A DNA stretch of 64,000 bases, from contig NZ_LT629762.1 in NCBI RefSeq assembly GCF_900105155.1, forward strand, positions 5,155,501-5,219,500, given 5' to 3'. The stretch comes from Pseudomonas prosekii (GTDB taxonomy: Bacteria; Pseudomonadota; Gammaproteobacteria; Pseudomonadales; Pseudomonadaceae). This document shows positions 36,225 through 53,769 of the stretch, in pieces. A program made the position numbers and the translations under genes. Positions within the stretch are counted from its first letter, which is position 1. Each line of letters begins with the position of its first letter. The notes below the pieces were generated by a model. The model worked only from the letters and a program-made list of their open reading frames with translations. It was not told the origin of the DNA and ran no database searches.

Positions 36225-36242
36225 TGAATCGCCCCGGGTTTT

Positions 36243-37124: not shown

Positions 37125-37393
37125 TCCTTGGCAAAGTACGCGGCGGCCTTTTTTAAGATGTCTCGCTCCTCCGTCACCCGTTTCAGCTCGGCACGTAGAC
37201 GACGAACCTCAGCGCTTTGATCATCCTCCTCAACGCGCTGTTCTTGGGGCTTGGTGTAGCGCTTAACCCAGGCATAGAGGCTGTGCACGGACACACCCAA
37301 TCGTGCAGCCACCTCCGAGACAGGAAGCTGCTTTTCGGTCACTTGCTTGACCGCCTGGATTTTGAATTCTTCGGGATATCGCTGGTTGCTCAT
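37115..37393 (-). CDS. IS3-family transposase OrfA
   Basis: This 92-residue DNA-binding part has an HTH_8-type helix-turn-helix (VSEVAARLGVSVHSLYAWVKR) and a leucine-zipper-like C-terminus (RRLRAELKRVTEERDILKKA). A slippery AAAAAAG on the minus strand at 37148-37154, just before the overlap with orfB, is the expected -1 frameshift site. Confidence 0.92.
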   Translation of the reverse strand: MSNQRYPEEFKIQAVKQVTEKQLPVSEVAARLGVSVHSLYAWVKRYTKPQEQRVEEDDQSAEVRRLRAELKRVTEERDILKKAAAYFAKECG

Positions 37394-37499
37394 GGCACCT
37401 CCTAATGGGCCTCATTTTAAGGCTTGGAGGTGTCTACGAAACTAGGGGCGATTCAGTCTTTCGATCTGGGCTTTATGCGTTTTTATCATGCGGTTTTCA

Positions 37500-38264
37500 T
37501 TACGGCATCTGATGCACGGAGGCGGTTGCGTGGCCATCCAGGTAGTGGCCGCCGTCATCGACAAGCGTGTAGCTGACGGGTACGCGGGCATCTGCGCCGT
37601 GGGAGAAGTTGGCCAGCGGGTACGCTTTTTCGCTGAGGGGCGGGGCCATCATGTCGAGGGACTTTGCCACGGGCTGTTCACTCCCTTGAACGCCAACGCG
37701 TAAAGAAGAAAACGAGGCGTGATAGGGGCTGGGGTTGTGGCACACCAGCACCCAGGTACCTGCCTGCTGTTCGATGCGAAAGGTCAGGGCGCCAGCCATT
37801 TTTTCGGGAGCGCTGGGCAGGTTGGCGGGTCGGTAGAAGATTTTCATCTGGGTGTTCATGGCCACGGCGACGCGCGTAGAAAGCGCGGGCGCGTCTACTT
37901 TGGCAGGAGGGATTTCGTAGAGATTCAACCAGCTCACGGACTCACGGTCTTTCGGCAGCGCGCTACCGTCGTAAACGATGCGCAGGCCCTGCAACGCTTG
38001 GGGTTGCAGACGAAATACCGAAGGTAGGGCGATCATCGCCGAGACTGAGTCTTCCGGCGCGCGGTTGCCTTCACCGTTGTCGACCCAGGTTTGCACCACC
38101 ACGGGATAGGCATTGGTGTTGGCCAGCATCAGCGAGCGTTGGGTCTGGCCCTCGTGGAAGATCAACCGGGTCTGTTCGGGCATTAGCCCGGCACGCGCAA
38201 TTGAGGACGCACTCATTGCCACGCATATCCATACCAGCGCCGAGTAGAACGCGAGCCTGATCAT
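37500..38264 (-). CDS. Fimbrial periplasmic chaperone (second, CupD5-like)
   Basis: This 254-residue PapD-type chaperone has a signal peptide (1-25, ending ARA) and two Ig-like domains. Features include RLIFHEGQTQRSLMLANTN (first strands with the Arg that anchors subunits), FRLQPQALQGLRIVYDGSALPKDRESVSWLNLYEIPP (the G1 strand region and the DRES signature) and MKIFYRP before the second domain. Its ATG overlaps the adhesin stop as ATGA, so the two are coupled. Two chaperones flanking the usher and adhesin genes is the CupB/CupD pattern. Confidence 0.9.
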   Translation of the reverse strand: MIRLAFYSALVWICVAMSASSIARAGLMPEQTRLIFHEGQTQRSLMLANTNAYPVVVQTWVDNGEGNRAPEDSVSAMIALPSVFRLQPQALQGLRIVYDGSALPKDRESVSWLNLYEIPPAKVDAPALSTRVAVAMNTQMKIFYRPANLPSAPEKMAGALTFRIEQQAGTWVLVCHNPSPYHASFSSLRVGVQGSEQPVAKSLDMMAPPLSEKAYPLANFSHGADARVPVSYTLVDDGGHYLDGHATASVHQMP

Positions 38265-39574
38265 TGGACCTTTACCAGTACGTAAGCGGTGGCGTTGACC
38301 CTGCCCGGCTTGGCTGTTTCGCCAGGCAGGATGCTGAGGGTGGCGGTGATCGTCTGCAGGTAGCTGGTGTAGCCGGACGCGTTGCTGCCGGCGCTGCTGG
38401 CGCCCGCTAATACCGGGTACCAGCCGCCGGTGGCGCCCGTGCCGGTGCCCGACCATCCCAGAAAATTCATGGCACTGCCGTTGCTAGTGTTACGCAGGCT
38501 GATACCCACCCCGGTGGCTACCGAAGGGTCGGTGCCATAGCCGTTGGACACCAGATAGGTCACCCCGCCGCCACTGCTCAACAGCCCCAGGGACTGGGCT
38601 TGGGTATACGCGCTGTAGGCCACTTGGATGCCCAGTGCGGTCTGGTTGCTGGCGGTACCGGAACTGGCGGTGTTGCTGCATTCCAGGCCGATGGTGAAGT
38701 CACTGCTGCGAGTCATGCCCTGGTTCAACTCAGTGGCGGTGATCGGCAGGAAACTCACCACGGGCGTGACGTTGCGGGCCACGCAGGTGGCGGTGTAACT
38801 GATAGAAGCCGCGGCGCGCATGCCAAACGCAATACCGTTGCGTGCGCCCCAGAAGTTGTAGTTGTTGTTGGAGTCCGACCCCACCGGATCCGAGGCGATG
38901 CCACCCCCTCGAAACTGGACGTAGCCATTGGGCTGGGTGCATGTATAGCTGTAGGTCCCGCTGCCACTGGAGGCTGCTTGGCCCCCGCACCAGTTACTTC
39001 CCGAGCCTGACGTTGGCGGGAGGCTGGATACGCGAGCAAGTTCGCCCTGGATCATGCTCAAGTGTTTGGCTTTGATCTGGATCTTGTTGCCGACCGTGTC
39101 GTACTGGGTGATTTTGGCGTCCTGCCAATAGCGTGTGAACACTTTGCCAGAGTTCAGGTGCGTCAATTTGATCCCGACATAGGGGAACCACGTGGCGTAG
39201 TAACCGGGCAGCCCATCGTTGACCGAGGCCCCTGATCCATTGCCGATTTCCCAGTAACCGCCGACACGGTCGTCACCGTTGGTGGCGAACACCTCGTAAA
39301 TGCTATCGGCGTCGCTCAGGTCGCATTGCCACAGTACGGTCTCGCTGGTGAGTCCGGGCGCCGTCGCGGCGGAAACTACAATGGAGCCCAAATGCGTGCC
39401 GACCGGTTGCAGGTAGCTGGAGGTCAGGTTAACCCGGCCAAACGTCAGTTGTGCCGAGTTGCCGTCCAGCACTTGATTACCGTTGAAGACCCGCGTGCAG
39501 GTTGCCTGGGCATCCGCACCGACGGTGGCGCCGAGGGTCAGGAGCAGTGTGAACAGTGGACGAAAAAGAGTCAT
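38261..39574 (-). CDS. Fimbrial tip adhesin (CupD4-like)
   Basis: This 437-residue protein has a signal peptide (1-22, ending ADA) and a long N-terminal receptor-binding part rich in Gly, Ser, Asn and aromatic residues with paired cysteines (ATCTRVF, WQCDL, NWCGG, YTCTQ). A C-terminal pilin-like domain (CVARNVTPVVSF to the end) lacks a self-completing strand and ends in NATAYVLVKVQ, suited to donor-strand exchange. This two-domain layout is that of chaperone-usher tip adhesins. The ligand is unknown. It sits between the usher and second chaperone genes. Confidence 0.87.
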   Translation of the reverse strand: MTLFRPLFTLLLTLGATVGADAQATCTRVFNGNQVLDGNSAQLTFGRVNLTSSYLQPVGTHLGSIVVSAATAPGLTSETVLWQCDLSDADSIYEVFATNGDDRVGGYWEIGNGSGASVNDGLPGYYATWFPYVGIKLTHLNSGKVFTRYWQDAKITQYDTVGNKIQIKAKHLSMIQGELARVSSLPPTSGSGSNWCGGQAASSGSGTYSYTCTQPNGYVQFRGGGIASDPVGSDSNNNYNFWGARNGIAFGMRAAASISYTATCVARNVTPVVSFLPITATELNQGMTRSSDFTIGLECSNTASSGTASNQTALGIQVAYSAYTQAQSLGLLSSGGGVTYLVSNGYGTDPSVATGVGISLRNTSNGSAMNFLGWSGTGTGATGGWYPVLAGASSAGSNASGYTSYLQTITATLSILPGETAKPGRVNATAYVLVKVQ

Positions 39575-39598
39575 GGTGAGCTCCGGTATAAAAGAGTT

Positions 39599-42238
39599 TC
39601 AGGGGCGGCGGCAATCGCTGTTGAGTTTTATCAGGGCTTGGCTGACGTCCTGTCGCGTCAGGTCGAACTGCATACGGCACTGCTCGTTTGCGCCTTCGCC
39701 CCAACGGACGGTCAGGCGGCCCTTGAGTTTTTCGGTGCGCAGGTAAGCCTGGCTGCCTTGGCCGACCATCCCGATGAGGCTGCCGTTTTGGTCCAATACA
39801 TCGGCGCCCATGGGCACGGCCTCACCGCCGGGGCGTAAGGCTTTGACCAGGATTGCGTTACCGACGCGGGTCTTGAATTCAACCTTCACGGCTGCTCCTG
39901 CGTAGGGCGCGACGCGGCGCTGGCCGTCATCGAGTTCGGCTTTTTCACTCATACCCTCAGGGTTGATGGCTACCGTGTTGTAGCGATAAGGGGTCAGCGA
40001 AGGCACCAGCGCGTAGCCGTCGCTGTCGATGGTTGCGCCCATGCCATTCATGACCTTCGCACCGCTGGCGCCCTTGGCTTCGATCAGGGCGAAGGTGTCG
40101 CCCAAGTAAGGTCCGAACGTCACACCGCCGCCGTGCACGGCCAAGGCACCACGAGCGCTGCCGGACGCTTGCCAGTAATCCTGCCCTTTGGACGCGCTGG
40201 CGCTGACCGAGGCGTTGGGCAGATGTTTCTGGACGTTGGCGCTCCACACGTTCTGTTTCTGATCGGCGTCGCGGGACACGTCCATGCTGTAGCTCAAGCT
40301 CTGATCGACCCCCTGGGTGCCCGACAACGAGGTTTGATACAGGTCGCCAGAGGTAGAGCTGTGCGTCACTGAGCTGCTCAGCGACGGCACATTCGAGCGG
40401 GCCGGGCTGCCAAGAGGGAAGGACACCGAGAGCAGCGTGACGGTCTCTTGGGTGCCGGCACTGCGCGTGGTGCCTACCCCGTTGTCCGAGACCGTGTTGC
40501 CCAGTTGGTCGTTGTAGTTGCCGCTTCGCCGGTTCAGGTAACTGCCGGTGCTCTGTCGCGACACGGACAGGTTGACGCTGACGTTGTTGCGCAAGGTGTT
40601 GGCCCAGCCAAATTGCAGCTGCGTGTCGCGTTCTCGGCCGCTGCGGTAGTCCTGGGTCGAACCGGATAAAAACACGCTGCCGTAGTCATTGAGGTTTTGA
40701 TTGATCGACACCTCGAAGCGTGAGCGTTGCATATAGCTCGTCGACTCCCAGGTTTGTTGGTTGCGGATCGACTCGCGCACGCCGAGCACGTCGCCGAGGT
40801 CTCGATAGCCTTCGGTTGAATAGCGGTAGCCGGCAATCGACAAGGTGGTCTTGGTCGGCTGAAAGGTGCGGCTGTACGACAGGCGTGCCATCCAGCCATC
40901 GAGCAGGCCTTCGTTCGGCAGATTGGCGCGCGAGTAGGTGGTGTCCAACCCGAATGCACCCAGGGTGTTGGCGTAGACGCCGCCGAGCACCAGCGCCTGG
41001 TAGCCCTCGGCTACCCGAAAGCCGCTATTGGCGGTCACGCTGTTGGTCAGGCCGCGCTGGTAGGTCATTTCGCTGAAGGGATCTTGGTCGCCAAGATCGC
41101 GGCTTCGGCCAATTGCCATGCTGTAGCGTGACAGGCCAGGCCGCAACGACTCGGGAACCGCTGAAAACGGTACCGTGAAACGGCTGACGCTGCCGTCGGC
41201 CTCGACCACCGAGACTTCAAGGTCGCCGTTGTAGCTGGTGGAATAGAGGTCGTTGATTTCAAAAGGACCAGGCGCTACGGTGGTCTGATAGATGTCATTG
41301 CCGTTCTGGCGCACGATCACCTGCGCGTTGGTTTTGGCAATCCCACGTACCGTAGGTGCATAGCCGCGCACTGACTCCGGCAGCATGCGGTCGTCGGAAG
41401 CAATCTCCAGCCCGGTGTAGCTCATGCCGGAAAAAAACCGACCTGAAGTAAAACCCTGGCCCACGGTCATTTCGCCTTGTAATCCAGGCAGGGCGCGTTG
41501 GGCGTAAGTGCGGGTGGTGTTCCAGTGGCTGCCGTTGTCGTTGTCGTAACGCAAATTGCCTTGTTGGCGCAGACGCCACAGACCCATGTTCAACCCGCTG
41601 TTGAGGGCCAGGTAGCTTGAGTCGGAACTGCCGCTGTAGTTGCCTGTGCGTGTGACGTGGTACTGGCTGGCGCTGTAGTTCACGAAACCGATGGTGTTGC
41701 CGCCGTCCAGGTTTTGCGGCGCGACGTAGCCGCGCGGGGTGTTCAGCATCAGGCTCTGTGGCACGTTCAGGTCCAGGCGCATCTGCCCGAAATCGAATGC
41801 TGTCGACGCGCCCTGAACGGCTTTGCCGAGAACCAGGCACTGGGCCGTGCTGGGTGACTGGATAGCGCTTTTGAGGACTCCGCCGCTTTCCAGCAACGCT
41901 ACGGGCAGGCAGGGCTGCACATCGCCTTCACCCTGGTCAGCGAAGCGCAGGTCAACGCGGTCGACAAAACGACCGTTGATAAACAAATCCACCCGGTATT
42001 GCCCGGGTTCAATGGCGTTGACCCTATTGAAGCGCGCCAGTGAACCGCTGCCAAACAGCATGTTGTCGTCGAACACATAAGCGTCGGTGGACGCTGCGAC
42101 GGTGCTTTGCGCCATGGCAATGCCTGGACTCATCAGGCTGACCGTGCTGAACAGGGTTGACTGAACGAAACCGCGTAACCAGCAGTGACGTGCAAATACA
42201 AGCCCCATCTTGAATGCTGATACACGATAGGTAGGCAT
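39599..42238 (-). CDS. Fimbrial outer-membrane usher (CupD3-like)
   Basis: This 879-residue usher secretes and assembles fimbrial subunits. A signal peptide (ending AMAQS) is followed by an N-terminal chaperone-binding domain (FDDNMLFGSGSLARFNRVNAI, GQYRVDLFINGRFV), the 24-strand pore with plug (PTVRGIAKTNAQVIVRQNG, PGPFEINDLYSTSYNGDLEV), and two C-terminal domains (PYAGAAVKVEFKTRVGNAILV). The start at 42238 has GAGG eight bases upstream; a GTG three codons earlier is less likely. It is the central gene of the fimbrial operon. Confidence 0.95.
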   Translation of the reverse strand: MPTYRVSAFKMGLVFARHCWLRGFVQSTLFSTVSLMSPGIAMAQSTVAASTDAYVFDDNMLFGSGSLARFNRVNAIEPGQYRVDLFINGRFVDRVDLRFADQGEGDVQPCLPVALLESGGVLKSAIQSPSTAQCLVLGKAVQGASTAFDFGQMRLDLNVPQSLMLNTPRGYVAPQNLDGGNTIGFVNYSASQYHVTRTGNYSGSSDSSYLALNSGLNMGLWRLRQQGNLRYDNDNGSHWNTTRTYAQRALPGLQGEMTVGQGFTSGRFFSGMSYTGLEIASDDRMLPESVRGYAPTVRGIAKTNAQVIVRQNGNDIYQTTVAPGPFEINDLYSTSYNGDLEVSVVEADGSVSRFTVPFSAVPESLRPGLSRYSMAIGRSRDLGDQDPFSEMTYQRGLTNSVTANSGFRVAEGYQALVLGGVYANTLGAFGLDTTYSRANLPNEGLLDGWMARLSYSRTFQPTKTTLSIAGYRYSTEGYRDLGDVLGVRESIRNQQTWESTSYMQRSRFEVSINQNLNDYGSVFLSGSTQDYRSGRERDTQLQFGWANTLRNNVSVNLSVSRQSTGSYLNRRSGNYNDQLGNTVSDNGVGTTRSAGTQETVTLLSVSFPLGSPARSNVPSLSSSVTHSSTSGDLYQTSLSGTQGVDQSLSYSMDVSRDADQKQNVWSANVQKHLPNASVSASASKGQDYWQASGSARGALAVHGGGVTFGPYLGDTFALIEAKGASGAKVMNGMGATIDSDGYALVPSLTPYRYNTVAINPEGMSEKAELDDGQRRVAPYAGAAVKVEFKTRVGNAILVKALRPGGEAVPMGADVLDQNGSLIGMVGQGSQAYLRTEKLKGRLTVRWGEGANEQCRMQFDLTRQDVSQALIKLNSDCRRP

Positions 42239-42257
42239 GACGATCACCTCGTGCTAA

Positions 42258-42983
42258 TCAAAGAAGGGGCAGATCAGTGATGACATCAGCACCGAAATCG
42301 TTGACCAATGTCAGGCGCACGGTGTCTCCCGCAGCGGCGGAGGCGCCGGCGGGCAGCGCCCAGTTGGCCTGGCTTAACGGCGCGACCATCGACGCCTGTG
42401 AAAGCGCGTAGGACTTGCCCCGGCTGACCACGTCGGCACGGCGCACGGTGGCGAAATACCCGCTGTCATTGCTAGCGATCACCGTCTTGCCCTGAAGCTT
42501 GAAATGCAGGGATTGGTTCAGCGCGTCGGGGTTTCCGGCCAGCCCTTGCGGGCGGTAAAACACCTTCATGCGGCTACTGACGCTGAGCAGCAACTTGTTG
42601 GCTTGCCGCTCGCTGGTCTTCATGGCCGGCATCTGCACGAAATTGAGGTAGAACAGCGATTCGCGGTCCTTCGCCAGGTCGTTGCCGGTGAAGACCAGGC
42701 GCACGACCTGGCCAGCATTGGGATTCATGCGAAACACTTGCGGACTGGCGATAAACGGCGCATCAGCGGTCTGTGCCGTGAGGTTCGGGTTGCCCGTGTC
42801 GAGCCACATTTGGACCAGGTAGGGATGGGTGTCCTGATTGGTCAGTTGCACCACCTTTTCCTGGACTTGGGCCGGGTAGATGACGCGGGTGCCCGTCATT
42901 ACGACGCTGGCATGTGCGTAGGAGGTCATGGCCGTGCCGAGTGTCAGCGCCAATGCCAGTGTGGTTTTCTTCAGGCGAGTCAT
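42258..42983 (-). CDS. Fimbrial periplasmic chaperone (first, CupD2-like)
   Basis: This 241-residue PapD-type chaperone has a signal peptide (1-25, ending AHA) and two Ig domains: GTRVIYPAQVQEKVVQLTNQ, FRMNPNAGQVVRLVFTGNDLAKDRESLFYLNFVQMP and MKVFYRP. GGAGAACACC precedes the ATG. It lies between the pilin and usher genes and is expected to escort the major pilin. Confidence 0.93.
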   Translation of the reverse strand: MTRLKKTTLALALTLGTAMTSYAHASVVMTGTRVIYPAQVQEKVVQLTNQDTHPYLVQMWLDTGNPNLTAQTADAPFIASPQVFRMNPNAGQVVRLVFTGNDLAKDRESLFYLNFVQMPAMKTSERQANKLLLSVSSRMKVFYRPQGLAGNPDALNQSLHFKLQGKTVIASNDSGYFATVRRADVVSRGKSYALSQASMVAPLSQANWALPAGASAAAGDTVRLTLVNDFGADVITDLPLL

Positions 42984-43071
42984 GGTGTTCTCCGTCCAAC
43001 AGGCGCAGAGCGGGTGAAGAATGCGGGCGTGGGTAAAAGTGCCGGGCACAGGGCCCGGCAGGTACCTGGGA

Positions 43072-43599
43072 TTACAGGTAATCCAGGGCGTATTGCGCGG
43101 TGGCCGAAACAGTACCGGCCGTGGCGGCACCGGCTTCGCTGATGTAGCGAACAGCGAAATCGTGGCTGGCGCTGGTGGCGCCAGAGCTCAAGGTCAAGCC
43201 TGGAACTGAGGTGATCCCGTTGAGTACAACGGCAGAACCGCCAGTTTCGCTGAGCAGTTGCACTTGTACGTTGGTGGCCGTACCGGCGTTGGCAAGGTTG
43301 CCTGCGCTGGTCACGTTGTTACCCAGGAAAGCCGTCTTGATGGCGAGGCTCGAAGAGGGTGCGGTGCAGCCGCTCACGCTGACGGTGAAGGGTGTTTCGC
43401 CTGCCGTGCTACCCACTGCATTCAGGGCGGCAGCGCTGACGGTAGGCATTAGGATGACCGGGTTCGCGGCGTTGCCATTGACCGTGACAGCGCAGGTCTG
43501 AGCCGATACCTGGCCGGTGAACGTGATGGTGTTCTGGGCGGCTGCGAAGGTCAGCGCTGGAGCGGCGGTCATGGCCAGGATCAAGGCAATACGCTTCAT
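43072..43599 (-). CDS. Major fimbrial subunit (CupD1-like pilin)
   Basis: This 175-residue type 1-like pilin has a signal peptide (1-20, ending FAAA), a donor strand ITFTGQVSAQTCAVTVNG, a conserved Cys pair (TCAVT and SGCTAPSS) and a C-terminal pattern with the penultimate aromatic (AQYALDYL). GAGGAG precedes the ATG. It is the promoter-proximal gene of the five-gene fimbrial operon, as expected for the most abundant subunit. Confidence 0.93.
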   Translation of the reverse strand: MKRIALILAMTAAPALTFAAAQNTITFTGQVSAQTCAVTVNGNAANPVILMPTVSAAALNAVGSTAGETPFTVSVSGCTAPSSSLAIKTAFLGNNVTSAGNLANAGTATNVQVQLLSETGGSAVVLNGITSVPGLTLSSGATSASHDFAVRYISEAGAATAGTVSATAQYALDYL

Positions 43600-43845
43600 G
43601 GTGGAACTCCTCATTAAAGTTGATTGGGCTGCGCGTGGAGGCTGTCCGGTGTTCGCCAACCGGCGTAACGGGGCTTGTCCAGGCGCCGCAATCTTAAGGA
43701 GAGGAGGCGTTAGGTTTAATCAGGCGATTCTTAAAAGCTGCGTAATGGCCATGCGTGGCGACCGCTCACAGAACCGTGCCGAAAGCGCGGGTACTTTGAG
43801 GATCGTCTTATTCCGGCTCAATGGCCGTTGGATTAACGTTCGCTG
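43600..43845. promoter_or_regulatory. Divergent control region of the fimbrial operon and sensor kinase genes
   Basis: This 246-base gap separates the pilin gene (minus) and the first kinase gene (plus). It contains TTAAAAGCTGCGTAATGGCC at 43731-43750, which matches 16 of 20 bases of a sequence upstream of the small receiver-like gene at 51919. It is the natural place for the RcsB-like and other regulators to act. No clear sigma-70 promoter was identified. Confidence 0.5.
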
Positions 43846-46653
43846 ATGAAACTACGCCAATCCCTACCTCCGTTCGACACGTCGTTCTCAACTCCCACTG
43901 CGGCGAGGAAGTTGCTGCGCCTGTTGGTGAGCGCTCTGGTGTTGGGGTTTTACGCGGGCGTCTACAGCTATGTGAACGCCACCTTGAGCCAGGAGATATC
44001 CCAGCGCCGCAGTTACATGAACGCGGCGATATCCGATGCGCAGAGTTTTTTCGTCAGTCGCCAGACACTGCTCAAGACGCTGCGGCTGGCGGCGGTGCGC
44101 AGCATCACTGCGCCGGTAGCCAGTGCGAATGCGGTGGAGGGGGAAGAGGTGCACGTCGGCCTTGGGACGGACAAACAAGCCTGGAGCCTGTGGCTGACCC
44201 ACCGCATGATCGACTACCTGCGGCTCAACAACGTGAACCTGTTGTACGCCGCGAGCGGCACCCGAGCCGAGGTGATGCGCCTGATCCCCGCCCGCGAACC
44301 AGTCCAGCTGATTGCCCCGCATTTGCTGGCGCGGCTCAACGCTGAATATGACAGCGCCGCCGACGAGCTTTGGCTCACGGATCCCGAGCGCGATGATTCC
44401 CCCCTGTATATATTTACCTGTCTTGATGACCGTAGCCCTCATTCAGGTTGGATGGGGTTGGAAGTCGAGTCGCCAGACCTGCTGAACGCCCTGGGAAACG
44501 AAAACGCCGGCCAGTTCATCTTGCTCGACGCCAGCGGCCAACTGATTTTTGATAGCGCGCAAGGGCAGTCGTTACGCCTGGAACTAGCTCAAATGCTGGC
44601 GCCTCAGTCGTTCGGCTTTGTCGGCGGCACTTGGCTGCCGGATCATCTGGCGATTCGTAAACAACTGGGGTTTTCGAACTGGCAGATCGTCTACGCCCTC
44701 GACATGCACTCACTACTGCCTGCGTTGATAAGCCCCGTGCTGATCAGCGTATTGCTGTGCGTACTCACCACCTGGCTGATGATCTGGCTGATGCGGCGCA
44801 TCGACCAGCGCCTGATCGTACCCGCCGGCAATCGCATTGAGGCGCTGGTGGAAAGCGAGGCGTTCAGCCGGGCGGTGATCCGCATTGCGCCGGTGGCGCT
44901 GTGTGTGCTGCGCCGCCAGGACGGCGAGGTGGTACTTGATAACCCGCTGTATACGCAGTGGATCGGCGACAGTCAGGAGCGCCAGCAACGCAGTGCTGAC
45001 TGGATCCGTCGCGGCTTTGATGATGCCGAACACAACACTGTCGATGAGTTGCAACTGGCGGATGGTCGTCACCTTTATCTGAGCTTCGCGCGTACTCGAT
45101 ACAAGCGCGAAGATGTATTGATCTGCGCATTCAGCGACATCAGCGCGCGGATGCAGGTGGAAGTGGCCCTGGATCGCGCGCGGCGTATGGCCGACGCCGC
45201 CAACGAAGCCAAGACCTTGTTCCTGGCAACCATGAGCCATGAAATTCGCACGCCGCTGTACGGCGTCCTGGGCACCCTGGAGTTGTTGGCACGCACTGAG
45301 TTGAGTGATCAGCAAAAAGGCTATCTGCAGGCCATCGAAGGGTCTTCTGCCAATCTGCTGCAACTGATCAGCGATGTGCTGGATGTGTCGCGTATCGAGG
45401 CGGGGCAGTTGCAACTGGAGTGCAACCGGTTCTCACCGTTGGAATTGATCGAGGAAGTGATTCACGGCTATGCCGCCGCGGCTCACCGCAAAGGCCTGCA
45501 ATTGTTTGCCTGCGTCGATCCGCAGTTGCCGGACTGGTTGAGCGGTGACGTCAGCCGCATTCGGCAGATCCTCAGTAACTTGCTCAACAATGCGCTGAAA
45601 TTTACCGACAGCGGCCGGATCATCCTGCGCGTCCGGCTGGACAGCCGCGACGGTGAGCGTGTGATGTTGCACTGGCAGGTGTCCGATACCGGCAAAGGTA
45701 TCTCCCACGAAGACCAGCAACACCTCTTCGAACCGTTCTACCAGGCTGACGGGAACACCCACGTAATAGCGGGAACCGGCCTGGGCCTGTCGATCTGCAA
45801 GCGCTTGATGCACCTGATGAACGGCAGTATGCGTGTGGTGAGTGAACCGGGCCTGGGCAGCAGCTTTACCCTGCACCTGCCCCTTGAGCAGCTATCGGCG
45901 TTGGAGCCATCACTGGGCGCTGATGAACTGTTGCCGGAAATGGTCTGCGTGGTCTCGCCGGTACGCGAGTTGGCCGTCAGCATCTGTGGCTGGTTGTGCC
46001 GATGGGGCGCGCGCGCCCAAGTCGGTTTGCCCAAGGCCTATGACAATACGCAGGGTGCGGTGATCCTTGAGTTGCACCCTGGCCGACTTGGCGAAACGTT
46101 GGCCGCGCACTGGGAAGGCCCGCGCGTACTGGCGGCCAGTGATCTGCATGATGAGGCCCTCAACAACCCGACAGGCATAGTGAGCTTCAACAACTTGAAG
46201 GCCCTGCGCATGGCGGTTGGGGCCGCTCAAGGCCAACTCATGCGCGGCGCGACGGCATCAGCGCAAAGCTACCCGGTATTCAACCTGGGTATCCACGTGC
46301 TGGTGGCCGAAGATAACGTCATCAATCAGTTGATTCTGCGCGATCAGCTCGAAGAACTCGGCTGCACGGTCGAATTGGCCGGCGATGGGCTCACGGCCCT
46401 GGAGATGTGGCGCCATTCGACGTTCGACCTGATCCTCACCGACATCAATATGCCGCGCATGAACGGCTACGAACTGACCGCCAAATTGCGCAGCCTCGAC
46501 TGCCACTTGCCTATCATCGGCGCTACCGCAAACGCCATGAGCGAGGAGGGTGAGCGTTGCCTGGAAGCGGGTATGAACCGCTGCCTGGTAAAACCGTTTG
46601 CCTTACGCACGCTTTACACCTGCCTGGAACCTTACCAAAGGAGTGGCAATTGA
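43846..46653 (+). CDS. Hybrid sensor histidine kinase (PvrS-like)
   Basis: This 935-residue inner-membrane kinase has a first span near residues 24-44, a periplasmic sensor of about 240 residues, and a second span (ALISPVLISVLLCVLTTWLMIW). A PAS-like segment (APVALCVLRRQDGEVVL), a HisKA domain with H465 (TMSHEIRTPLYG), an HATPase (NLLNNALKFTDSG, SDTGKGIS, GTGLGLSIC) and a C-terminal receiver with D866 (LTDINMPRMNG) and K in LVKPF follow. No HPt is attached, so phosphate must pass to another protein. The next gene overlaps its stop. It faces the fimbrial operon, as pvrS does beside cupD. Confidence 0.9.
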   Translation: MKLRQSLPPFDTSFSTPTAARKLLRLLVSALVLGFYAGVYSYVNATLSQEISQRRSYMNAAISDAQSFFVSRQTLLKTLRLAAVRSITAPVASANAVEGEEVHVGLGTDKQAWSLWLTHRMIDYLRLNNVNLLYAASGTRAEVMRLIPAREPVQLIAPHLLARLNAEYDSAADELWLTDPERDDSPLYIFTCLDDRSPHSGWMGLEVESPDLLNALGNENAGQFILLDASGQLIFDSAQGQSLRLELAQMLAPQSFGFVGGTWLPDHLAIRKQLGFSNWQIVYALDMHSLLPALISPVLISVLLCVLTTWLMIWLMRRIDQRLIVPAGNRIEALVESEAFSRAVIRIAPVALCVLRRQDGEVVLDNPLYTQWIGDSQERQQRSADWIRRGFDDAEHNTVDELQLADGRHLYLSFARTRYKREDVLICAFSDISARMQVEVALDRARRMADAANEAKTLFLATMSHEIRTPLYGVLGTLELLARTELSDQQKGYLQAIEGSSANLLQLISDVLDVSRIEAGQLQLECNRFSPLELIEEVIHGYAAAAHRKGLQLFACVDPQLPDWLSGDVSRIRQILSNLLNNALKFTDSGRIILRVRLDSRDGERVMLHWQVSDTGKGISHEDQQHLFEPFYQADGNTHVIAGTGLGLSICKRLMHLMNGSMRVVSEPGLGSSFTLHLPLEQLSALEPSLGADELLPEMVCVVSPVRELAVSICGWLCRWGARAQVGLPKAYDNTQGAVILELHPGRLGETLAAHWEGPRVLAASDLHDEALNNPTGIVSFNNLKALRMAVGAAQGQLMRGATASAQSYPVFNLGIHVLVAEDNVINQLILRDQLEELGCTVELAGDGLTALEMWRHSTFDLILTDINMPRMNGYELTAKLRSLDCHLPIIGATANAMSEEGERCLEAGMNRCLVKPFALRTLYTCLEPYQRSGN

Positions 46654-47846
46654 AACCCTATCGGGTGCTGATTGTTGAAGATCACCCCTTTCAGCATGAA
46701 TTTTTGCGCAACCTGTTCAGTACCCTGGGTGGGTTCAACGTCGAGGCCGTATGGGATGGCGCCACGGCGCTGCAACGCCTGAACACTCACACTTACGATC
46801 TGGTCGTGACTGACTTATTCATGCCCGTGATGGACGGCGTGCAACTGATCCAAAGCATTGCCAGGCTCGGCAACGCACCTGCGCTGGCGCTGATGAGTGT
46901 GGCCTCGCGACGCATGTTGGTCAGTGCCGGGCTTGTGGCAAAAAATCTGGGGCTGGAAGTGCTGGGGCTTATTTCAAAGCCGGTGGCTGCGTGCGACATC
47001 ATGCGCTTGCGCGATTGTCTCGATAAGCGCCGCAGTGACTTGGATGCCTCCCGTCGCCATCCTGTGCAGCCCGCTCGCCAATGCCTGCTGGAAGCCATGG
47101 AAAGCGGTGAAATACAGGCCTGGTTTCAACCGAAAAAATCGTTGCGTGACGGCCGAGTGTGCAGCGCCGAGGCGTTGGTGCGTTGGCGACACCCGCAGCA
47201 GGGAACGTTGCTGCCCAGGGATTTTCTGCCAGCGCTTCAACGTTTCGGACTCGAAGATAAATTATTGTGGCTGATGCTGGAGCAGACGATCGAGGCGCAG
47301 TCGTTCTGGCGTCGTCGTGGCTGTGAAGTGCCCGTTTCGATCAACTTGCCGACCCACTTGCTCGACAGCCACGACCTCGCCGATCGTTTGCACGATCGTG
47401 TTTTGGCCCTGGGCGCCGAACCCGCCTCGATCGGTTTCGAGCTGATGGAGACGTCCACCACCGAGTCGGCCAGCGATTACTACGCAGGCGCCTGCCGCTT
47501 GCGCATGAAAGGCTTCGGACTGGCGCAGGACGACTTCGGCAAAGGTTTCAGTTCCTATTTCAACCTGGTTTCTACGCCCTTCAGCGAACTGAAAATTGAC
47601 CGCTCACTGGTCCACGGTTGCGTCGACAACGAAGGCCTCGCCACCGCGTTACAGAGCATTGTCGAACTGAGCCGCAAGTTGGGCCTGACGGTGACGGCCG
47701 AAGGCGTGGAAACCCAGGACGAGCTAGAGTTCTTGCGCAAGATCCACTGTGATCAGGCGCAGGGTTTCCTAATTTGCGCCGCCGTACCGCCTGAACGGTT
47801 TTATGAGTTGTTGCGCGAAGATGGCCTGAAGCCAGCACTAAATTGA
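46650..47846 (+). CDS. EAL-domain response regulator, c-di-GMP phosphodiesterase (PvrR-like)
   Basis: This 398-residue protein has a receiver (residues 1-120, phosphorylation site D55 in VVTDLFMPVMDG, K110) and an EAL domain (140-390). The catalytic set looks complete: E174-A-L, N232, E264, D294-D295 (DDFGKG), K315, E351 (EGVE) and Q371. It should therefore hydrolyse cyclic di-GMP and oppose fimbriation or biofilm. The start is a TTG overlapping the kinase stop as TTGA, with a near-perfect AAAGGAG ribosome site inside the kinase gene; no ATG fits. Confidence 0.92.
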   Translation: MKPYRVLIVEDHPFQHEFLRNLFSTLGGFNVEAVWDGATALQRLNTHTYDLVVTDLFMPVMDGVQLIQSIARLGNAPALALMSVASRRMLVSAGLVAKNLGLEVLGLISKPVAACDIMRLRDCLDKRRSDLDASRRHPVQPARQCLLEAMESGEIQAWFQPKKSLRDGRVCSAEALVRWRHPQQGTLLPRDFLPALQRFGLEDKLLWLMLEQTIEAQSFWRRRGCEVPVSINLPTHLLDSHDLADRLHDRVLALGAEPASIGFELMETSTTESASDYYAGACRLRMKGFGLAQDDFGKGFSSYFNLVSTPFSELKIDRSLVHGCVDNEGLATALQSIVELSRKLGLTVTAEGVETQDELEFLRKIHCDQAQGFLICAAVPPERFYELLREDGLKPALN

Positions 47847-47937
47847 AGTCAAGTTGTCTACCTGTAACGCGCCATGGAATGGCAACAGTGGCGGAGAAGC
47901 TCCTCGCCGTTTCATTCCAAGATCCGGGGCGTCGGCG

Positions 47938-50900
47938 ATGAAAAATGCAAGCCTGAAGTTCGGCGTCTTCGCTTTGAGCTCTCAACGAATCAACAAGCTG
48001 TTGCTGGTGCTCGCCGGCCTGACGGTGCTGCTGGTCAGCATGTGTTACTGGGCGGTTGAAAGGGTATTGGACGAAGAGCGGATCAAGGTCGACTTCCATT
48101 TTTCGGGCTTGATCGAAAGCATTCATGAGTACGACACGTTTTTGCGCAGTGTCGCCAGTGCGTATGACCGCAGCAACCAGAACACCCTGACCGACATTCG
48201 CCCCGTGTCCCGCGTCGAGATTTTGCAGAAAGGCCAGGAGCGGGTATTCCAGAATCACGGGCTTTTCCTTTCCCAGCCTTTCACCCTGAGCGAGCGCAAG
48301 CGCTATGACCCGGAGCAGTTGCAGGGCGGCTATTCGCTGGGCGTGCAACTGACCGATTACTACAGCGCATTTTGGGCCAGCTCGTTCTATTCGGCGCCAC
48401 AGATATTCCTGTTTTCGCCGACCGACCAATTCAACATCGCGATTCCCGGCGTCGATGGCACGCGCAGGCAATCGTTATTGCTCAAGAGCAACTTCTTTGA
48501 AGTGACGGGGTACTTGTACCAAGGGCTGCTCGCCCAGCACGAGCAACTCAATAACCGGCGCGTGAGCTGGATGCGCGCCCCCAAGGGGCTGTTGCAGGGT
48601 ACCGAAACGATTGTGGCGTTTATCGGTTTGGACATAAACCCATCGGTCATGCCTGAGCGTCGGGATGATGGTTTGCTGACGGTTGCAGCGTTGCTGGACG
48701 CTGGGCAAATCGACGACCTGGACCGCTTGCTGACACGCCCGATTGACCATCGCGTCACGTTGATCTCTCCGGCAGGCGATGTGTTGCTCGGCGATGCCAA
48801 GGGTTCAGCGTCATTGCCGGTTGGCATGAGCCTGGGCGCCGAGGGCCTGCGCTTCAAGGTGGTTTCGACCGGCAAAGATAAATGGGTTGGCTTGTACACC
48901 ATCAGCTATGAAAACTTCTTTCGCTTCGCCAAATGGTCATTGCTGGGCACGGGCGCAGTGTTTCTGCTCGCGGTGTTTTTAGGCTGGCGGGTCAACCGCT
49001 GGTACCGCGCCGGCATCGTCGAGCCGGCGTTGCGAGCGACACGATTACTGACCGAAAGTGAAGAGTTCAACCGCGCCATACTGCAAAGCGCCCCGGTGGG
49101 CCTTTGCGTGGTGCAACGTAACAACAGCAAGGTGCTGCTGGAAAACCAGCGCGCCCAGGAGTGGCAGGGCACCGCTGAGCTGATCGGTTTTCTCAACCGC
49201 GACTATCGAGAGGAAGACCCGCGCGAGATGCAGATCGAGGTGGCCGGGCGGCATTTGCTGGTCTCGTTCAGGTTCAGTCGCTATCAGGGTGAGGATGTGG
49301 TGCTCTGCGGGTTCAATGACATCACCCGCCATGTTGATGATGCCCTGCTGATGGAGCAGGCCAAACGTTCCGCCGACGAGGCTAGCGCCGCCAAGACGCT
49401 GTTCCTGGCGACCATGAGCCATGAAATCCGCACGCCCCTTTACGGCGTATTGGGCAACCTCGAGCTGCTGGGATTGACCCATCTTGACGCCCGCCAACAG
49501 GACTATCTGCAGACCATCGAGCGCTCGTCGGCAGTGTTGTTTCAGTTGATCAGCGATGTGCTGGACGTGTCGAAAATCGAATCCGGGCAGATGGCGCTCG
49601 AGACCGTGACTTTCAGCCCTCTGGATGTCTTCGAAGATGCGGTAAACAGCTATGCTGCCGCAGCCCTCAACAAAGGGTTGCAGGTGTTCGCCTGTGTGGA
49701 TGCGAACTTGCCTGCCCTTATGAGCGGTGACCCTGGCCGCATTCGGCAAATCCTGAATAACTTGCTCAGTAATGCGATCAAATTCACTGATTCTGGCAGG
49801 GTCATCGTGCGCCTCAAGGTGACGGACCTGGCACTGAACCACGCAACGTTGCAATGGCAGGTTTCCGACACGGGCGCCGGCATCAGTGAAAAGCAACTGG
49901 GGCAGTTGTTCAAACCTTTCTCGCAGTTGGGCGGCAGCCAGCAGGCCGGCGGTGCTGGGCTTGGCTTGTCGATCTGCTCCCGCTTGAGCGAACTGATGGA
50001 CGCACAATTGCGGGTGGTCAGCGAGCCGGGGCTTGGCAGCAGTTTCTCCCTTCACCAACGCCTGCCTATCGTCCCAGGCCCATTACCTGACTGTTCGGCC
50101 ATTGAACTCCAAGGGTTGGCGGTATACGTGCGGGCACCGTTCAAGGAGCTTGAGCAATCGCTGACTGACTGGCTCAACCGCTGGGGCGCACGTGCGGTAG
50201 CGCTGCCGTCGGGCTACCAGGGTGATCAACATGAGTTGCTGCTGGATATGGGGAATGGGCCTGGCCAGCAGAGCGTTTGGAATGGCCGGCACATCACGGC
50301 GACCGAACTCGGAGCATCTCAGGGCGAAGCGTTTAAGCAAGCCTGGACGGTCAACGCCTACGACATTCGCGGCATTGCCCGAACTCTTTCGCAGGCGCGC
50401 CCAGGCGGCGTTAAACCGCTCGGGTCATCCGAGCGCGTCGGTGACCAGCGCCTGGTGTTGAGGGTGCTGGTGGCAGAAGACAACCCGATCAATCGCGCCA
50501 TTTTGCAGGAGCAACTCGAGGCGCTGGGCGCGTGGGTCGTCGCCGCTGGAGATGGTGAGGAAGCGCTGCAACGGTGGTCGCCTGGTGCCTTTGATTTGGT
50601 TATCACCGACATCAATATGCCCCGGCTAGACGGTTATGGCCTGGCCCGCGCCTTACGCGAGCGTGACAGGCAAACGCCGATCATTGGCGTCACTGCAAAC
50701 GCTCTGCGAGAGGAGGGGGAGCAGTGCCTGGCAGCGGGAATGGACACCTGGGTGGTTAAACCCTTGAGCATGGACGCGTTGCGCAAAACCCTGCTGCGCT
50801 ATTGCGGCGAGCGCGTGGATGAACAGCAGGAGGCGTCCACCCTGCAGCAAGGCGACCTGGACGGGTGGATCACGTTGTCCGCGACTATGCACCGGCTGTT

Positions 50901-51183
50901 CATCACCACCATGCAGGACGACGTCCGCTTGACAAGACAAGGTCTCGACGCAGGCGACAAGGAACACGTGGTGCGGCATTTGCACCGCATGAATGGCTCC
51001 CTTGCATCGATTCGTGCCTCGCGCTTGAGCGCTGCATGCAACGCGCTGGAAGAGGCGCTGTACAAGGGGGCACTGGACCCGAGCCTGGTGGCTCAGGTGC
51101 GCAATCTGCTACAGCGCCTGGAGGCGGTAATGGACGCCATGGCGCTCAATCCAAGCTCTCAAGGCCAACCATCGGACAGGTAG
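47938..51183 (+). CDS. Hybrid sensor histidine kinase with HPt domain (RcsC-like)
   Basis: This 1081-residue kinase has two membrane spans (about 20-42 and 328-350) around a periplasmic sensor, then a PAS-like region and HisKA with H495 (TMSHEIRTPLYG). HATPase motifs (NLLSNAIKFTDSG, SDTGAGIS, GAGLGLSIC), a receiver with D891 (ITDINMPRLDG) and a C-terminal HPt domain with H1016 (LHRMNGSLAS) follow. With its own HPt it can complete a phosphorelay to the RcsB-like regulator encoded three bases downstream, and perhaps also to the EAL regulator. Its kinase core closely resembles that of the first kinase, so the two arose by duplication. Confidence 0.92.
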   Translation: MKNASLKFGVFALSSQRINKLLLVLAGLTVLLVSMCYWAVERVLDEERIKVDFHFSGLIESIHEYDTFLRSVASAYDRSNQNTLTDIRPVSRVEILQKGQERVFQNHGLFLSQPFTLSERKRYDPEQLQGGYSLGVQLTDYYSAFWASSFYSAPQIFLFSPTDQFNIAIPGVDGTRRQSLLLKSNFFEVTGYLYQGLLAQHEQLNNRRVSWMRAPKGLLQGTETIVAFIGLDINPSVMPERRDDGLLTVAALLDAGQIDDLDRLLTRPIDHRVTLISPAGDVLLGDAKGSASLPVGMSLGAEGLRFKVVSTGKDKWVGLYTISYENFFRFAKWSLLGTGAVFLLAVFLGWRVNRWYRAGIVEPALRATRLLTESEEFNRAILQSAPVGLCVVQRNNSKVLLENQRAQEWQGTAELIGFLNRDYREEDPREMQIEVAGRHLLVSFRFSRYQGEDVVLCGFNDITRHVDDALLMEQAKRSADEASAAKTLFLATMSHEIRTPLYGVLGNLELLGLTHLDARQQDYLQTIERSSAVLFQLISDVLDVSKIESGQMALETVTFSPLDVFEDAVNSYAAAALNKGLQVFACVDANLPALMSGDPGRIRQILNNLLSNAIKFTDSGRVIVRLKVTDLALNHATLQWQVSDTGAGISEKQLGQLFKPFSQLGGSQQAGGAGLGLSICSRLSELMDAQLRVVSEPGLGSSFSLHQRLPIVPGPLPDCSAIELQGLAVYVRAPFKELEQSLTDWLNRWGARAVALPSGYQGDQHELLLDMGNGPGQQSVWNGRHITATELGASQGEAFKQAWTVNAYDIRGIARTLSQARPGGVKPLGSSERVGDQRLVLRVLVAEDNPINRAILQEQLEALGAWVVAAGDGEEALQRWSPGAFDLVITDINMPRLDGYGLARALRERDRQTPIIGVTANALREEGEQCLAAGMDTWVVKPLSMDALRKTLLRYCGERVDEQQEASTLQQGDLDGWITLSATMHRLFITTMQDDVRLTRQGLDAGDKEHVVRHLHRMNGSLASIRASRLSAACNALEEALYKGALDPSLVAQVRNLLQRLEAVMDAMALNPSSQGQPSDR

Positions 51184-51185
51184 AT

Positions 51186-51833
51186 ATGAAAAAAATCAAG
51201 GTAGTGATTGCGGACGATCATCCCATCGTGCTGCTCGGTGTGCGTGAAGTTATCCAGCGCGACGGACGTTTTATAGTGGTTGGCGAAGCGACCAGTTCCA
51301 GCCAATTGATCGACAGGCTTCAGAGCGAAAAACCGGACGTGGTCATTACCGACTTTCACATGCCCGGTGACTCGACGTTTGGTGACGGCCTCAAACTGAT
51401 TGAGTACCTCACGCGAAGGTTTGTCGACACGCAGATCCTGGTGCTGACCATGATGTCCAACAACTTGATCGTGTCACGCCTGCATGAATTGGGGGTGATG
51501 GGGGTTATTCAAAAAAACCACTTGCACGAAGAAATTGAAAACGCCCTGAACGCACTCGCCTCGCGGCGTAACTACCAGAGCCCCGTGCAGGAAGCCATCT
51601 CGGTTATCCACAATCAACAACAGGTCGACGAACGCTTTGCCAGCTTATCCCTGCGTGAAATGGAAATATTGCGCCTCTTCGTGGCCGGCCACAGCGTGAC
51701 GGACATTGCAAGCATGGTTAATCGCAGCAGCAAGACAGTGAGTGCGCAAAAGGTCTCAGCGATGCGCAAGCTGGCGGTCACAACCGATCAGGCGCTGGTG
51801 ACTTACTGCGTGAGCGCCGGGAAGTTTCAATAA
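51186..51833 (+). CDS. NarL/RcsB-like response regulator
   Basis: This 215-residue regulator has a receiver domain (phospho-acceptor D56 in VITDFHMPG, acidic pair D10-D11, and K in the QKNHL stretch) and a LuxR-type helix-turn-helix (ASLSLREMEILRLFVAGHSV, then TDIASMVNRSSKTVSAQKVSAM). It starts three bases after the HPt-kinase stop codon and is its likely partner. In the P. aeruginosa CupD locus, RcsB activates the fimbrial operon, and the same role is inferred here. Confidence 0.92.
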   Translation: MKKIKVVIADDHPIVLLGVREVIQRDGRFIVVGEATSSSQLIDRLQSEKPDVVITDFHMPGDSTFGDGLKLIEYLTRRFVDTQILVLTMMSNNLIVSRLHELGVMGVIQKNHLHEEIENALNALASRRNYQSPVQEAISVIHNQQQVDERFASLSLREMEILRLFVAGHSVTDIASMVNRSSKTVSAQKVSAMRKLAVTTDQALVTYCVSAGKFQ

Positions 51834-51845
51834 CGCTCGGCAACT

Positions 51846-51865
51846 TTAAGAACTGCCTGATGGCC
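51846..51865 (+). promoter_or_regulatory. Candidate regulator box upstream of the small receiver-like gene
   Basis: TTAAGAACTGCCTGATGGCC matches 43731-43750 at 16 of 20 positions. Its left half resembles the enterobacterial RcsAB box (TAAGAA). It starts 73 bases before the gene at 51919. It is a candidate target of the RcsB-like regulator. Confidence 0.4.
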
Positions 51866-51918
51866 CGCGGTAAGCGCCACGTTGATCATGCCCTCATTTA
51901 TCCACAGGGATCGTCTAA

Positions 51919-52311
51919 ATGAGCGGCAAGTGCGTGAAGCAGAAAAACATCATGGTGCTGTGCCGCCATGTCGGTGTTCTGCTTAATTACAGTGGGTTGT
52001 TAAATGAAGTAGGGTATTTCCACGTGATCCTCTGTTCTAATATGAAAGAGGTTTTGAGTACCGTTGATAAAACCAAAAAAATCGATTGTTTCATTGTAGA
52101 TGGCTTTCGGATAGACAGTACCGATAAGCAATATATCCGACGTTTGAATCGCCGTTGCCTGATAAAGAACTTTATGCTAATTGGTGATTTGGCTTTTGGT
52201 GACCAGCCACGTTTATTTACTTGGGCCAAAACACATTGCATTCCGTTATTAGGGATTTCCAAGCAACCTGTGAGCGCATCAGATTTGAAACGGTATCTAG
52301 AAATACTATAG
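51919..52311 (+). CDS. Small degenerate receiver-like protein
   Basis: This 130-residue protein has the order of segments expected of a CheY-like receiver. IMVLCRHVGVLL fits strand 1, HVILCSNMKEVL fits strand 2 and its helix, and KKIDCFIVDGFRID has an Asp where the phospho-acceptor lies. NFMLIGDLAF fits strand 4, and PLLGISKQPVSASDLKRYLEIL resembles strand 5 with the K-P motif altered to KQP. The usual acidic pair after strand 1 is missing (CRHV), so normal phosphorylation is doubtful. The gene is more AT-rich than its neighbours and has a weak ribosome site. I know of no named homologue in the Pvr/Rcs system. Confidence 0.55.
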   Translation: MSGKCVKQKNIMVLCRHVGVLLNYSGLLNEVGYFHVILCSNMKEVLSTVDKTKKIDCFIVDGFRIDSTDKQYIRRLNRRCLIKNFMLIGDLAFGDQPRLFTWAKTHCIPLLGISKQPVSASDLKRYLEIL

Positions 52312-53218
52312 AGAGTATGCGCGGGTTGATATCGTAGCGTGGACTATTCTCCGATTTGAAAGAGCCGCACGCATGACATCAAGGCCCACTACCGCCTTCA
52401 AAAAGATGAGTGGTGACCGTATTTGCGAGGCACAAGCTTGCAGCGCTGGTCCAGCGCCGAGGAATACATGGCGACGTAACTCTGCCTCGGCACTGACCTC
52501 AATACAGAGTCCGCCGTTGCTATGCGACGGCAGCGGGAGGCTCCTAGCCAAGTTCGGCAGGTAAGCCACTTTTCGATGAGAACCAATCCAATTTCATCGT
52601 TACGCCAGATGTGAATGTTGCCAAGTACTGTACACGTTGTACGTGTATGCCCTCATCGATTCAATGTCTGCTCTTGGCCGATGACTGCGTGTCGCCAGCG
52701 GCAGCAATGGGCAGCTCTCTACCGATCATGTTCTAAGCGTGCTGGTCAAATCCGATGCAATCGGTGGTCTGATCGAATGCAAGCGCCTGATCAAGTGCAA
52801 TGCAAACGGGTGGTCAGTACCGATGCAATCAGGTGGTCAAGTGGAGTGCAATTTCGCAACTCAACGTACCATCCCGTTGACCCCGACTCATTCGGTGCGT
52901 GCAAAAGGGCTAAATGAGTGGATCGGATGACGCGAGATCAACGCCACGTTTGCCGCGATCAGCTAGCAAAACCGAAAGAAGCTTTTCTGTGCGTTTAACC
53001 ATTGCCAGCGTAATGTTTAACGACACCATCTGTTACGTCCCAATGCCTACAAAACCTTGTGCCTTTGCCTACGGGTAAGACAGAATCCGCCGGCTTGTTC
53101 GCTGAAGGCCCCGCCGGTAACTTTGTCCCATCACTGCACATCAGTGATCGGGTTTAGTAGCTCGGCAGTCATCTTCGGTTGTACAAGTCTCCTTCGGTCA
53201 GGTTTGCCAGTGCTTGAT
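52312..53218. other. Gene-poor region with mobile-element footprints
   Basis: No convincing gene is seen. At about 52738-52870 a set of short repeats (CCGATGCAATCGGTGGTC at 52751, CCGATGCAATCAGGTGGTC near 52821, and related GATCAAGTGCAATGCAAACG) looks like the multiple terminal repeats of IS21-family ends, with no transposase genes next to them. The 52630-52740 stretch (CGTGTCGCCAGCGGCAGCAA) also looks like a dispersed Pseudomonas repeat. Open frames at 52306-52586 on both strands are short and unlike known proteins. This marks the right edge of the fimbrial region. Confidence 0.5.
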
Positions 53219-53340: not shown

Positions 53341-53349
53341 AAAGTCCCT

Positions 53350-53718: not shown

Positions 53719-53731
53719 TCGCCAGGCGATT

Positions 53732-53757: not shown

Positions 53758-53769
53758 TCGATCAATCAA

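Follow-up and report, generated by a model that had tools for sequence, protein, structure and literature searches.

Analysis of a 64,000-nucleotide stretch of Pseudomonas prosekii DNA (the window; positions 5155501-5219500 of the 6.09-Mb single-contig genome) revealed a 14.8-kb block, probably a mobile cassette that places a chaperone-usher fimbria not descended from CupD under a Pvr/Rcs control module. Pfam and NCBIfam scans of the window's open reading frames (ORFs; expectation value [E] 0.001) identified a minus-strand operon at 37500-43599, encoding pilin, chaperone, usher, adhesin, and second chaperone, and a plus-strand operon at 43846-52311, which diverges from it and encodes PvrS, PvrR, RcsC, and RcsB, followed by a receiver-like gene, orfX, with no Pfam or NCBIfam match at this threshold. 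All of the genes claimed in an earlier note on this DNA, five for the fimbria on the minus strand diverging from a hybrid kinase, an EAL protein, an Hpt kinase, and a NarL-type regulator, were therefore present. The Pfam matches comprised two PapD chaperones, an usher (PapC_N/Usher/PapC_C), two Fimbrial-domain proteins, and regulators with the domain orders HisKA-HATPase-Rec, Rec-EAL, HisKA-HATPase-Rec-Hpt, and Rec-GerE. The features of the block, in window coordinates, are as follows.

37500-38264, minus strand: second periplasmic chaperone (PapD_N/PapD_C); ATG at 38264 overlaps the adhesin stop; longest ORF to 38456
38261-39574, minus strand: two-domain tip adhesin with a C-terminal Fimbrial domain (Pfam/NCBIfam)
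39599-42247, minus strand: outer-membrane usher, placed outside the CupA/CupD clade (Pfam, usher trees, approximately unbiased [AU] test)
42258-42983, minus strand: first periplasmic chaperone (Pfam); start at 42983; longest ORF to 43130
43072-43599, minus strand: major pilin, Fimbrial domain (Pfam); start at 43599; longest ORF to 43659
43717-43733, minus strand: RcsB-box-like site TAAGAATCGCCTGATTA, facing the pilin gene, GAA kept
43797-43813, plus strand: RcsB-box-like site TGAGGATCGTCTTATTC, 32 bp upstream of pvrS, GGA instead of GAA
43846-46653, plus strand: PvrS hybrid sensor kinase (Pfam; histidine and receiver aspartate present)
46650-47846, plus strand: PvrR receiver-EAL cyclic di-GMP (c-di-GMP) phosphodiesterase (NCBIfam, motifs); ORF open from 46557
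47938-51183, plus strand: RcsC hybrid kinase with Hpt (Pfam, motifs); ORF open from 47854
51186-51833, plus strand: RcsB regulator, receiver and helix-turn-helix (HTH), LuxR/NarL type (Pfam, NCBIfam, motifs)
51919-52311, plus strand: orfX, a putative stand-alone degenerate receiver of the PA1468 kind (homology, predicted fold)

Alignments indicate that pvrR probably starts at the TTG at 46650, overlapping the pvrS stop, and that rcsC probably starts at 47938. The four regulators appear to be genuine Pvr/Rcs kin, as the earlier note had proposed, a conclusion borne out by their domains, active-site residues, PvrR score, and position in a combined tree. The window EAL protein scored 650.7 bits against the NCBIfam PvrR model (an equivalog model with a curated cut-off of 580), and on alignment it retains every one of the motifs that we take to be the EAL catalytic set (EAL, N, E, DDFG, K..D, and EGVE). 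Also retained are the HisKA histidine and receiver aspartate of PvrS, the HEIRT motif, receiver aspartate, and Hpt histidine of RcsC, and the aspartate and HTH of RcsB; the HEIRT threonine (T506 in PA14) has been tied to phosphatase action (PMC3842833; here and below, PA14 data follow this paper and PMC2696094). In a 58-row combined tree, the window regulators fall inside a starred 29-row Pvr/Rcs clade. RcsC of the window, PA7, and others has a segment of about 110 residues, located between its ATPase and receiver domains, that is missing at L054, L059, L074, and L209 (L- and G-numbers label the compared loci and genomes, respectively).

The block appears to have moved as a unit, because copies 96% and 89% identical at the DNA level have different neighbors. 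Identity to Pseudomonas fildesensis KG01 runs from 37456 to 52246 (96%), continuing to 52329, and identity to Pseudomonas viridiflava p4.D11 from 37499 to 52229 (89%), continuing to 52277; these two copies match each other to one base beyond the orfX stop. The three holders share no neighbors beyond the block in the 8 to 12 kb compared on each side (about 7.8 kb on the left), and in neither of the other two holders does the kinase pair of the window's right flank share a contig with the block. The earlier note's view that an entire fimbrial module was acquired together with c-di-GMP control of its own is supported by these near-identical copies and unshared neighbors, and the fixed syntenic position in close relatives that would have marked the locus as ancestral was not seen among the three holders. 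Vertical inheritance of a locus ancestral to the species group, followed by loss from most relatives, would account for three genomes with 89 to 96% DNA identity and for the related fimbrial operons kept by Pseudomonas helleri, Pseudomonas endophytica, and Pseudomonas sp. 7P_10.2; it is nevertheless unlikely, given the lack of common left neighbors, the end of right-side identity at 52329 in P. fildesensis, the displaced kinase-pair marker, and two of six relatives (G017 and G031) in which the markers of both putative flanks lie near each other with no cassette between them. In the other four relatives (G002, G016, G019, and G029), the left-flank tRNA and oxidoreductase genes described below are not beside the kinase pair. 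The features flanking the block are as follows.

35445-36218, minus strand: C-terminal fragment of a U32 peptidase gene, whose N-terminal part lies near 602 kb
36225-37455, minus strand: IS3-family element, orfA/orfB (transposase domains; exact 11-base inverted ends)
52876-53900, no strand assigned: segment holding a DUF6124 gene and the 3' end of the adjoining kinase gene, repeated beside a second insertion sequence (IS) copy near 604 kb
53770-55841, minus strand: chromosomal sensor kinase/response regulator pair, the right-flank marker (ORF scans, genome comparison)

The IS3 element, which the earlier note had mentioned beside the locus, is, as judged from the split U32 gene and a second IS copy, the likely breakpoint of a later inversion, outside the cassette. 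The second copy, 99.8% alike and in opposite orientation, lies at about 602.2 to 603.4 kb of the genome (L172, 598-605 kb), about 200 bases from the N-terminal part of the U32 gene, which is whole in the stretches of at least five of six relatives; one large chromosomal inversion between the two copies would have split the gene. IS3 as the vehicle of the cassette was rejected, as the P. fildesensis copy has no IS match there and the two IS copies explain the inversion. With the inversion undone on paper, the cassette would lie between tRNA-Val(gac) plus an oxidoreductase gene on the left and the kinase pair on the right, and the two DUF6124/kinase-end segments (97% similar over 551 bp and 85% over 1,052) would flank it as direct repeats; in PA14, too, cupD has been described as bracketed by a pair of direct repeats (PMC2696094). 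The DUF6124 gene (53350-53718) has four further similar copies in the genome (84 to 97%). The tRNA-Val(gac) at this putative original left flank is found in the same place in L153 and L155 and was not found there in L150, L151, L152, and L154, the other four kinase-pair stretches of relatives. Site-specific integration at the tRNA found no support, with the tRNA missing in four of six stretches and no word shared with the cassette ends. The flanking genes examined are chromosomal and not PAPI-1-like, the window not having been searched gene by gene for functions of integrative and conjugative elements. A GC anomaly as a sign of transfer was also discarded, only the 51-54 kb stretch being low.

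Modules of this kind are widespread. Of 398 Pseudomonas genomes sampled, 96 (the window's genome among them) have a PvrR match above the cut-off, which does not bear out the rarity of Pvr/Rcs outside Pseudomonas aeruginosa implied earlier. The sample held 100 such matches, the window's included; for 79 of the 99 others, and for 11 matches below the cut-off, a stretch of about 20 kb was fetched, and the layouts of these 90 stretches were classed from a table (68 stretches) or by hand (22). The fimbrial genes lie downstream of and collinear with the regulators in half of them (45/90), are convergent with the regulators in 16, are convergent and lodged between RcsB and RcsC in 8, and lie upstream and collinear in 6 (L068 and L084 being atypical). 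Only two stretches are divergent, both in G310, one of them with a fimbrial operon on each side. Whole or fragmentary ushers are present in 77 of the 90 and absent from 13, some of which are cut by contig ends. The layouts of Pvr/Rcs modules thus number at least five, and the ushers that accompany them belong to distant lineages. The loci in which the regulators are wrapped around the fimbrial genes are L086, L088, L090-L093, L316, and L317, in which rcsB is usually doubled. In G310, the cassette at L059 (C1:3289400-3309300) is accompanied by another at a distance of about 150 kb (see also L274/L275), and G244 has three PvrR matches over the cut-off. A tblastn search of PLSDB with PvrR at E 1e-60 found no plasmid-borne relatives.

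The gap between the two operons suggests how module and fimbria could be connected. A 17-base motif, scored at three mismatches or fewer, matches the 64-kb window twice, both times in the 246-bp pilin-pvrS gap and once in each direction (shuffles expect 0.00), and both sites are conserved in the P. fildesensis and P. viridiflava p4.D11 copies. GAA is essential in the PA14 cupD1 promoter (PMC3842833), and the window appears to have a GAA-bearing predicted RcsB site upstream of the pilin gene, as the CupD locus does; in PA7, the likely cupD1 start is preceded, at an estimated distance of about 75 bases, by the core TAAGAATCGTCTTA. Among 64 complete pvrS starts, drawn from the fetched stretches tabulated before the last 22 were classed, a same-strand site was found at 44 (between -150 and +130), exactly 32 bp upstream in 27 of these, whereas 200 letter-shuffled motifs averaged 0.02 and never exceeded 1. 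Over those whole stretches there were 69 matches, whereas 30 shuffled motifs averaged 1.0 and never exceeded 5. Sorted by position, the 74 matches in 93 stretches comprise 47 next to pvrS, 7 next to a pilin gene, 4 within pvrS and 1 within a pilin ORF (both as longest ORFs), 1 before orfX, and 14 elsewhere; several of the last group fall between rcsB and fimbrial genes where no pilin was recognized. It is conceivable that the regulators merely adjoin the fimbrial genes by hitch-hiking and serve other targets, as PA14 RcsB has core-genome targets too (PMC3842833) and 13 of the 90 PvrR stretches, some truncated, lack an usher; we give this little credence, however, since the sites in the shared gap are kept in both other holders and the remaining 77 stretches do contain an usher or pieces of one.

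The fimbria itself does not seem to be derived from CupD. An usher-alignment scan of a species-genome collection found 475 relatives, of which 79 loci were kept (genomes very near the window's were possibly left out). Among these loci, the closest ushers are those of the same-layout, orfX-bearing holders P. fildesensis KG01 (97% identity) and P. viridiflava p4.D11 (92%), followed at 74 to 75% by P. sp. 7P_10.2 (L178), P. endophytica (L179), and P. helleri (L191); within about 8 kb of the last three operons, the only part of those genomes searched, there were no Pvr/Rcs genes apart from a weak 39-bit receiver match in L178. More distant identities are 58% for Dyella, 52 to 54% for Yersinia, and 50% for Klebsiella (48 to 54% for Yersinia, Serratia, Klebsiella, and Acinetobacter together), and the window usher is 48% identical to the PA7 usher and 48% to the CupD3 candidate. 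PA7 has a convergent CupD layout with an adhesin of 448 amino acids (aa) and an RcsC of 1,083 aa, near the 448 and 1,084 aa of PA14 (PMC2696094). A named P. aeruginosa usher of 870 aa (CupD3 size; 86% identical to PA7) groups with PA7, as does one of 872 aa (1,868 members), which from its size is probably CupA3. Usher trees of 72, 45, and 50 rows were built with rows that we picked from a pool of 138, the last including five named proteins as well. The window usher falls in a clade separate from CupA/CupD (support of 95 and 99 in two trees, both starred), together with P. helleri/P. endophytica, Dyella, Yersinia, and Serratia ushers, and AU tests rejected uniting it with CupD-clade ushers, whether or not the P. 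helleri group was included (p-AU 8e-71 and 3e-61). Because usher trees and AU tests set it outside the CupD clade, the window usher appears not to be CupD by descent; the usher phylogeny on which the earlier note had staked its CupD-like fimbria thus went against that label, as did the regulator test given below. A second, distant usher gene lies in the same genome at 478765-480153 (L003, L176).

In the regulator tree (PvrS, PvrR, and RcsB; 58 loci), the window trio stands beside L070/L071, whose ushers are only 29% identical to the window usher, and L059 (G310) has a CupD-clade usher yet carries regulators of the L054-L067 group. For the 54 shared loci, with L072 and L076 (long branches) and L039 and L163 (no usher) omitted, the usher data rejected the regulator groupings (p-AU 1.3e-5 and 8e-51) and the regulator data rejected the usher groupings (p-AU 2e-6 and 3e-68). 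The two trees conflict and each data set rejects the groupings of the other; regulators and fimbriae therefore seem to have changed partners on more than one occasion. The regulator data also rejected a grouping of the window trio with PA7, standing for CupD and itself a long branch (p-AU 2.6e-4). That the locus is a CupD orthologue, spread from a PAPI-1-like island of P. aeruginosa with fimbria and regulators together from one CupD ancestor, is very unlikely, since the same gene content and internal order, the PvrR score above the cut-off, and an orfX relative just upstream of PA7 cupD1 are outweighed by an usher closer to those of Dyella, Yersinia, and Klebsiella than to the CupD3 candidate, by the AU rejections for usher and regulators alike, and by a layout that is divergent rather than convergent.

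The receiver-like gene, listed as an extra in the earlier note, is present in all three cassette copies (the P. fildesensis one being 85% identical), and related genes include one at PA7 cupD. Its predicted model is a five-strand receiver fold (predicted local distance difference test score of 86), with RocR as the best PDB match, over the RocR receiver. Phosphate-accepting receivers carry an acidic pair, an acceptor aspartate, and a conserved lysine. In the orfX alignment Asp61 is invariant in 10 of 10 sequences, there is neither an acidic pair after strand 1 nor a conserved lysine, and orfX appears to lack the full feature set of such receivers. One of its two PA7 relatives lies just upstream of cupD1 and the other directly upstream of a Cu-oxidase_4 gene; PA1468 is an RcsB-induced receiver-like gene directly upstream of a Cu-oxidase_4-type partner (PMC3842833), and the second PA7 gene is the presumptive PA1468 counterpart, as judged from its operon partner rather than from a PAO1 record. 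With this homologue standing for PA1468, homology and predicted fold make orfX a likely PA1468-type receiver. The gene is rare, with 5 of 398 genomes above 70 bits and 12 more at 37 to 41 bits; P. helleri and P. endophytica gave no match. In four of the five genomes, kin of usher, RcsB, RcsC, or PvrR (partly weak) lie within the stretch, G225 being the exception; relatives near fimbrial or Rcs-type genes include those of L059, G171, and, more weakly, G203. A strict orfX-PvrR link was not supported, orfX being rare and G225 having no such neighbors.

In PA14, genetics indicates that PvrS is a kinase, that RcsC acts as relay and phosphatase, that RcsB activates cupD and its own cluster, and that PvrR opposes it (PMC3842833, PMC2696094). 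The direction of phosphate flow, activation by RcsB, and antagonism by PvrR in the window are predicted by analogy with these results. PvrS would act as the kinase, with phosphate passing via the Hpt domain of RcsC to RcsB, and RcsC could also strip phosphate off. Phosphorylated RcsB would bind the two predicted pilin-pvrS sites and activate both operons, the fimbrial one to the left and its own to the right, and PvrR, co-induced, would lower c-di-GMP and limit or reverse attachment. As a guess, orfX might tune the relay as an accessory receiver partner, perhaps by competing for it.

Several observations weigh against a mobile cassette with a re-paired control module. No integrase was found among the ORFs scanned and no attachment repeat (a shared word of at least 11 bases between the tRNA and the cassette ends); the fimbrial and regulator genes have a GC content of 57.5 to 61%, ordinary for the window, with only the orfX end lower (51.5%). 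The promoter motif was initially spotted by visual inspection of the window and L059, the pvrS-side site carries GGA and not GAA, 20 of the 64 pvrS starts have no site at three mismatches, and those 64 include near-copies or one genome held in two collections. The usher and regulator trees are quick trees with long rows flagged, the PA7 regulators among them; the branch joining the window regulators to L070/L071 has a support of 91 and is not starred; the groups for the AU tests were picked after the trees had been seen; and PA7 plus two P. aeruginosa ushers recognized from their lengths stand in for the PA14 CupD records. Function in P. prosekii is predicted from its genes and from PA14 genetics. 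With these points weighed, a Pvr/Rcs-controlled mobile cassette with a non-CupD fimbria is still our preferred reading. Beyond this one locus, we lean toward regarding Pvr/Rcs as a plug-in Pseudomonas control cassette that repeatedly captures distant chaperone-usher operons (upstream, downstream, divergent, convergent, or wrapped) via a conserved RcsB box, with orfX/PA1468 as an optional further part of the circuit.

The literature searched, largely as abstracts with few subscription texts, contained no description of Pvr/Rcs outside P. aeruginosa; as far as it extends, what is new is the broad distribution of the module, its changes of partner, its pairing with a fimbria other than CupD, and the connection to orfX, the kind of system being already known. 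The control of CupD by RcsB and PvrR has so far been elucidated for a single pathogenicity island in a single species, and our data suggest that the module responsible is common in Pseudomonas and can be separated from its fimbria. The general question of how new surface organelles come under a phosphorelay with c-di-GMP output, and whether a short operator sequence suffices for this, thereby becomes testable. The circuit also becomes accessible in species besides P. aeruginosa, and PA1468, an orphan gene of the RcsB regulon, is tied to fimbrial loci.

The closest known system is cupD-rcsBC-pvrRS of PAPI-1 in PA14 (PMC2696094, PMC3842833), with which the window has in common the internal order of the five-gene fimbrial operon, the domains and catalytic residues of the four regulators, an RcsB-box-like site before the pilin gene, and, beside the PA7 version, an orfX-like gene. 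It differs in that the window usher and regulators lie outside the CupA/CupD clade and the PA7 CupD branch, respectively, and in that the window operons are divergent, whereas those of PA7 are convergent (cupD5 next to rcsB); the PA14 layout also appears to be convergent from the locus numbers and text of PMC2696094. The match to PAPI-1 asserted in the earlier note therefore stands for gene content and for order inside each operon but not for their mutual orientation. RocS1-RocA1-RocR, which controls cupB/cupC, resembles the window module, by its published description, in having a sensor, an HTH activator, and an EAL antagonist acting on Cup fimbriae (PMC2696094), the comparison made here being the structural match of the orfX model to the RocR receiver. 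PA1468 resembles orfX through its PA7 homologue (31% identical, receiver fold) and differs in its core-genome location. P. helleri, P. endophytica, and P. sp. 7P_10.2 have the same five fimbrial genes, with the closest ushers outside the cassette holders. Yersinia and Serratia fimbriae of the same clade have ushers 50 to 54% identical to ours; unlike in the window, a more distant hybrid kinase and a LuxR-type regulator precede the Yersinia operon on the same strand in 11 of 12 loci (L182, L185-L188, L190, L192, L194, L196, L201, and L231), possibly forming a parallel circuit.

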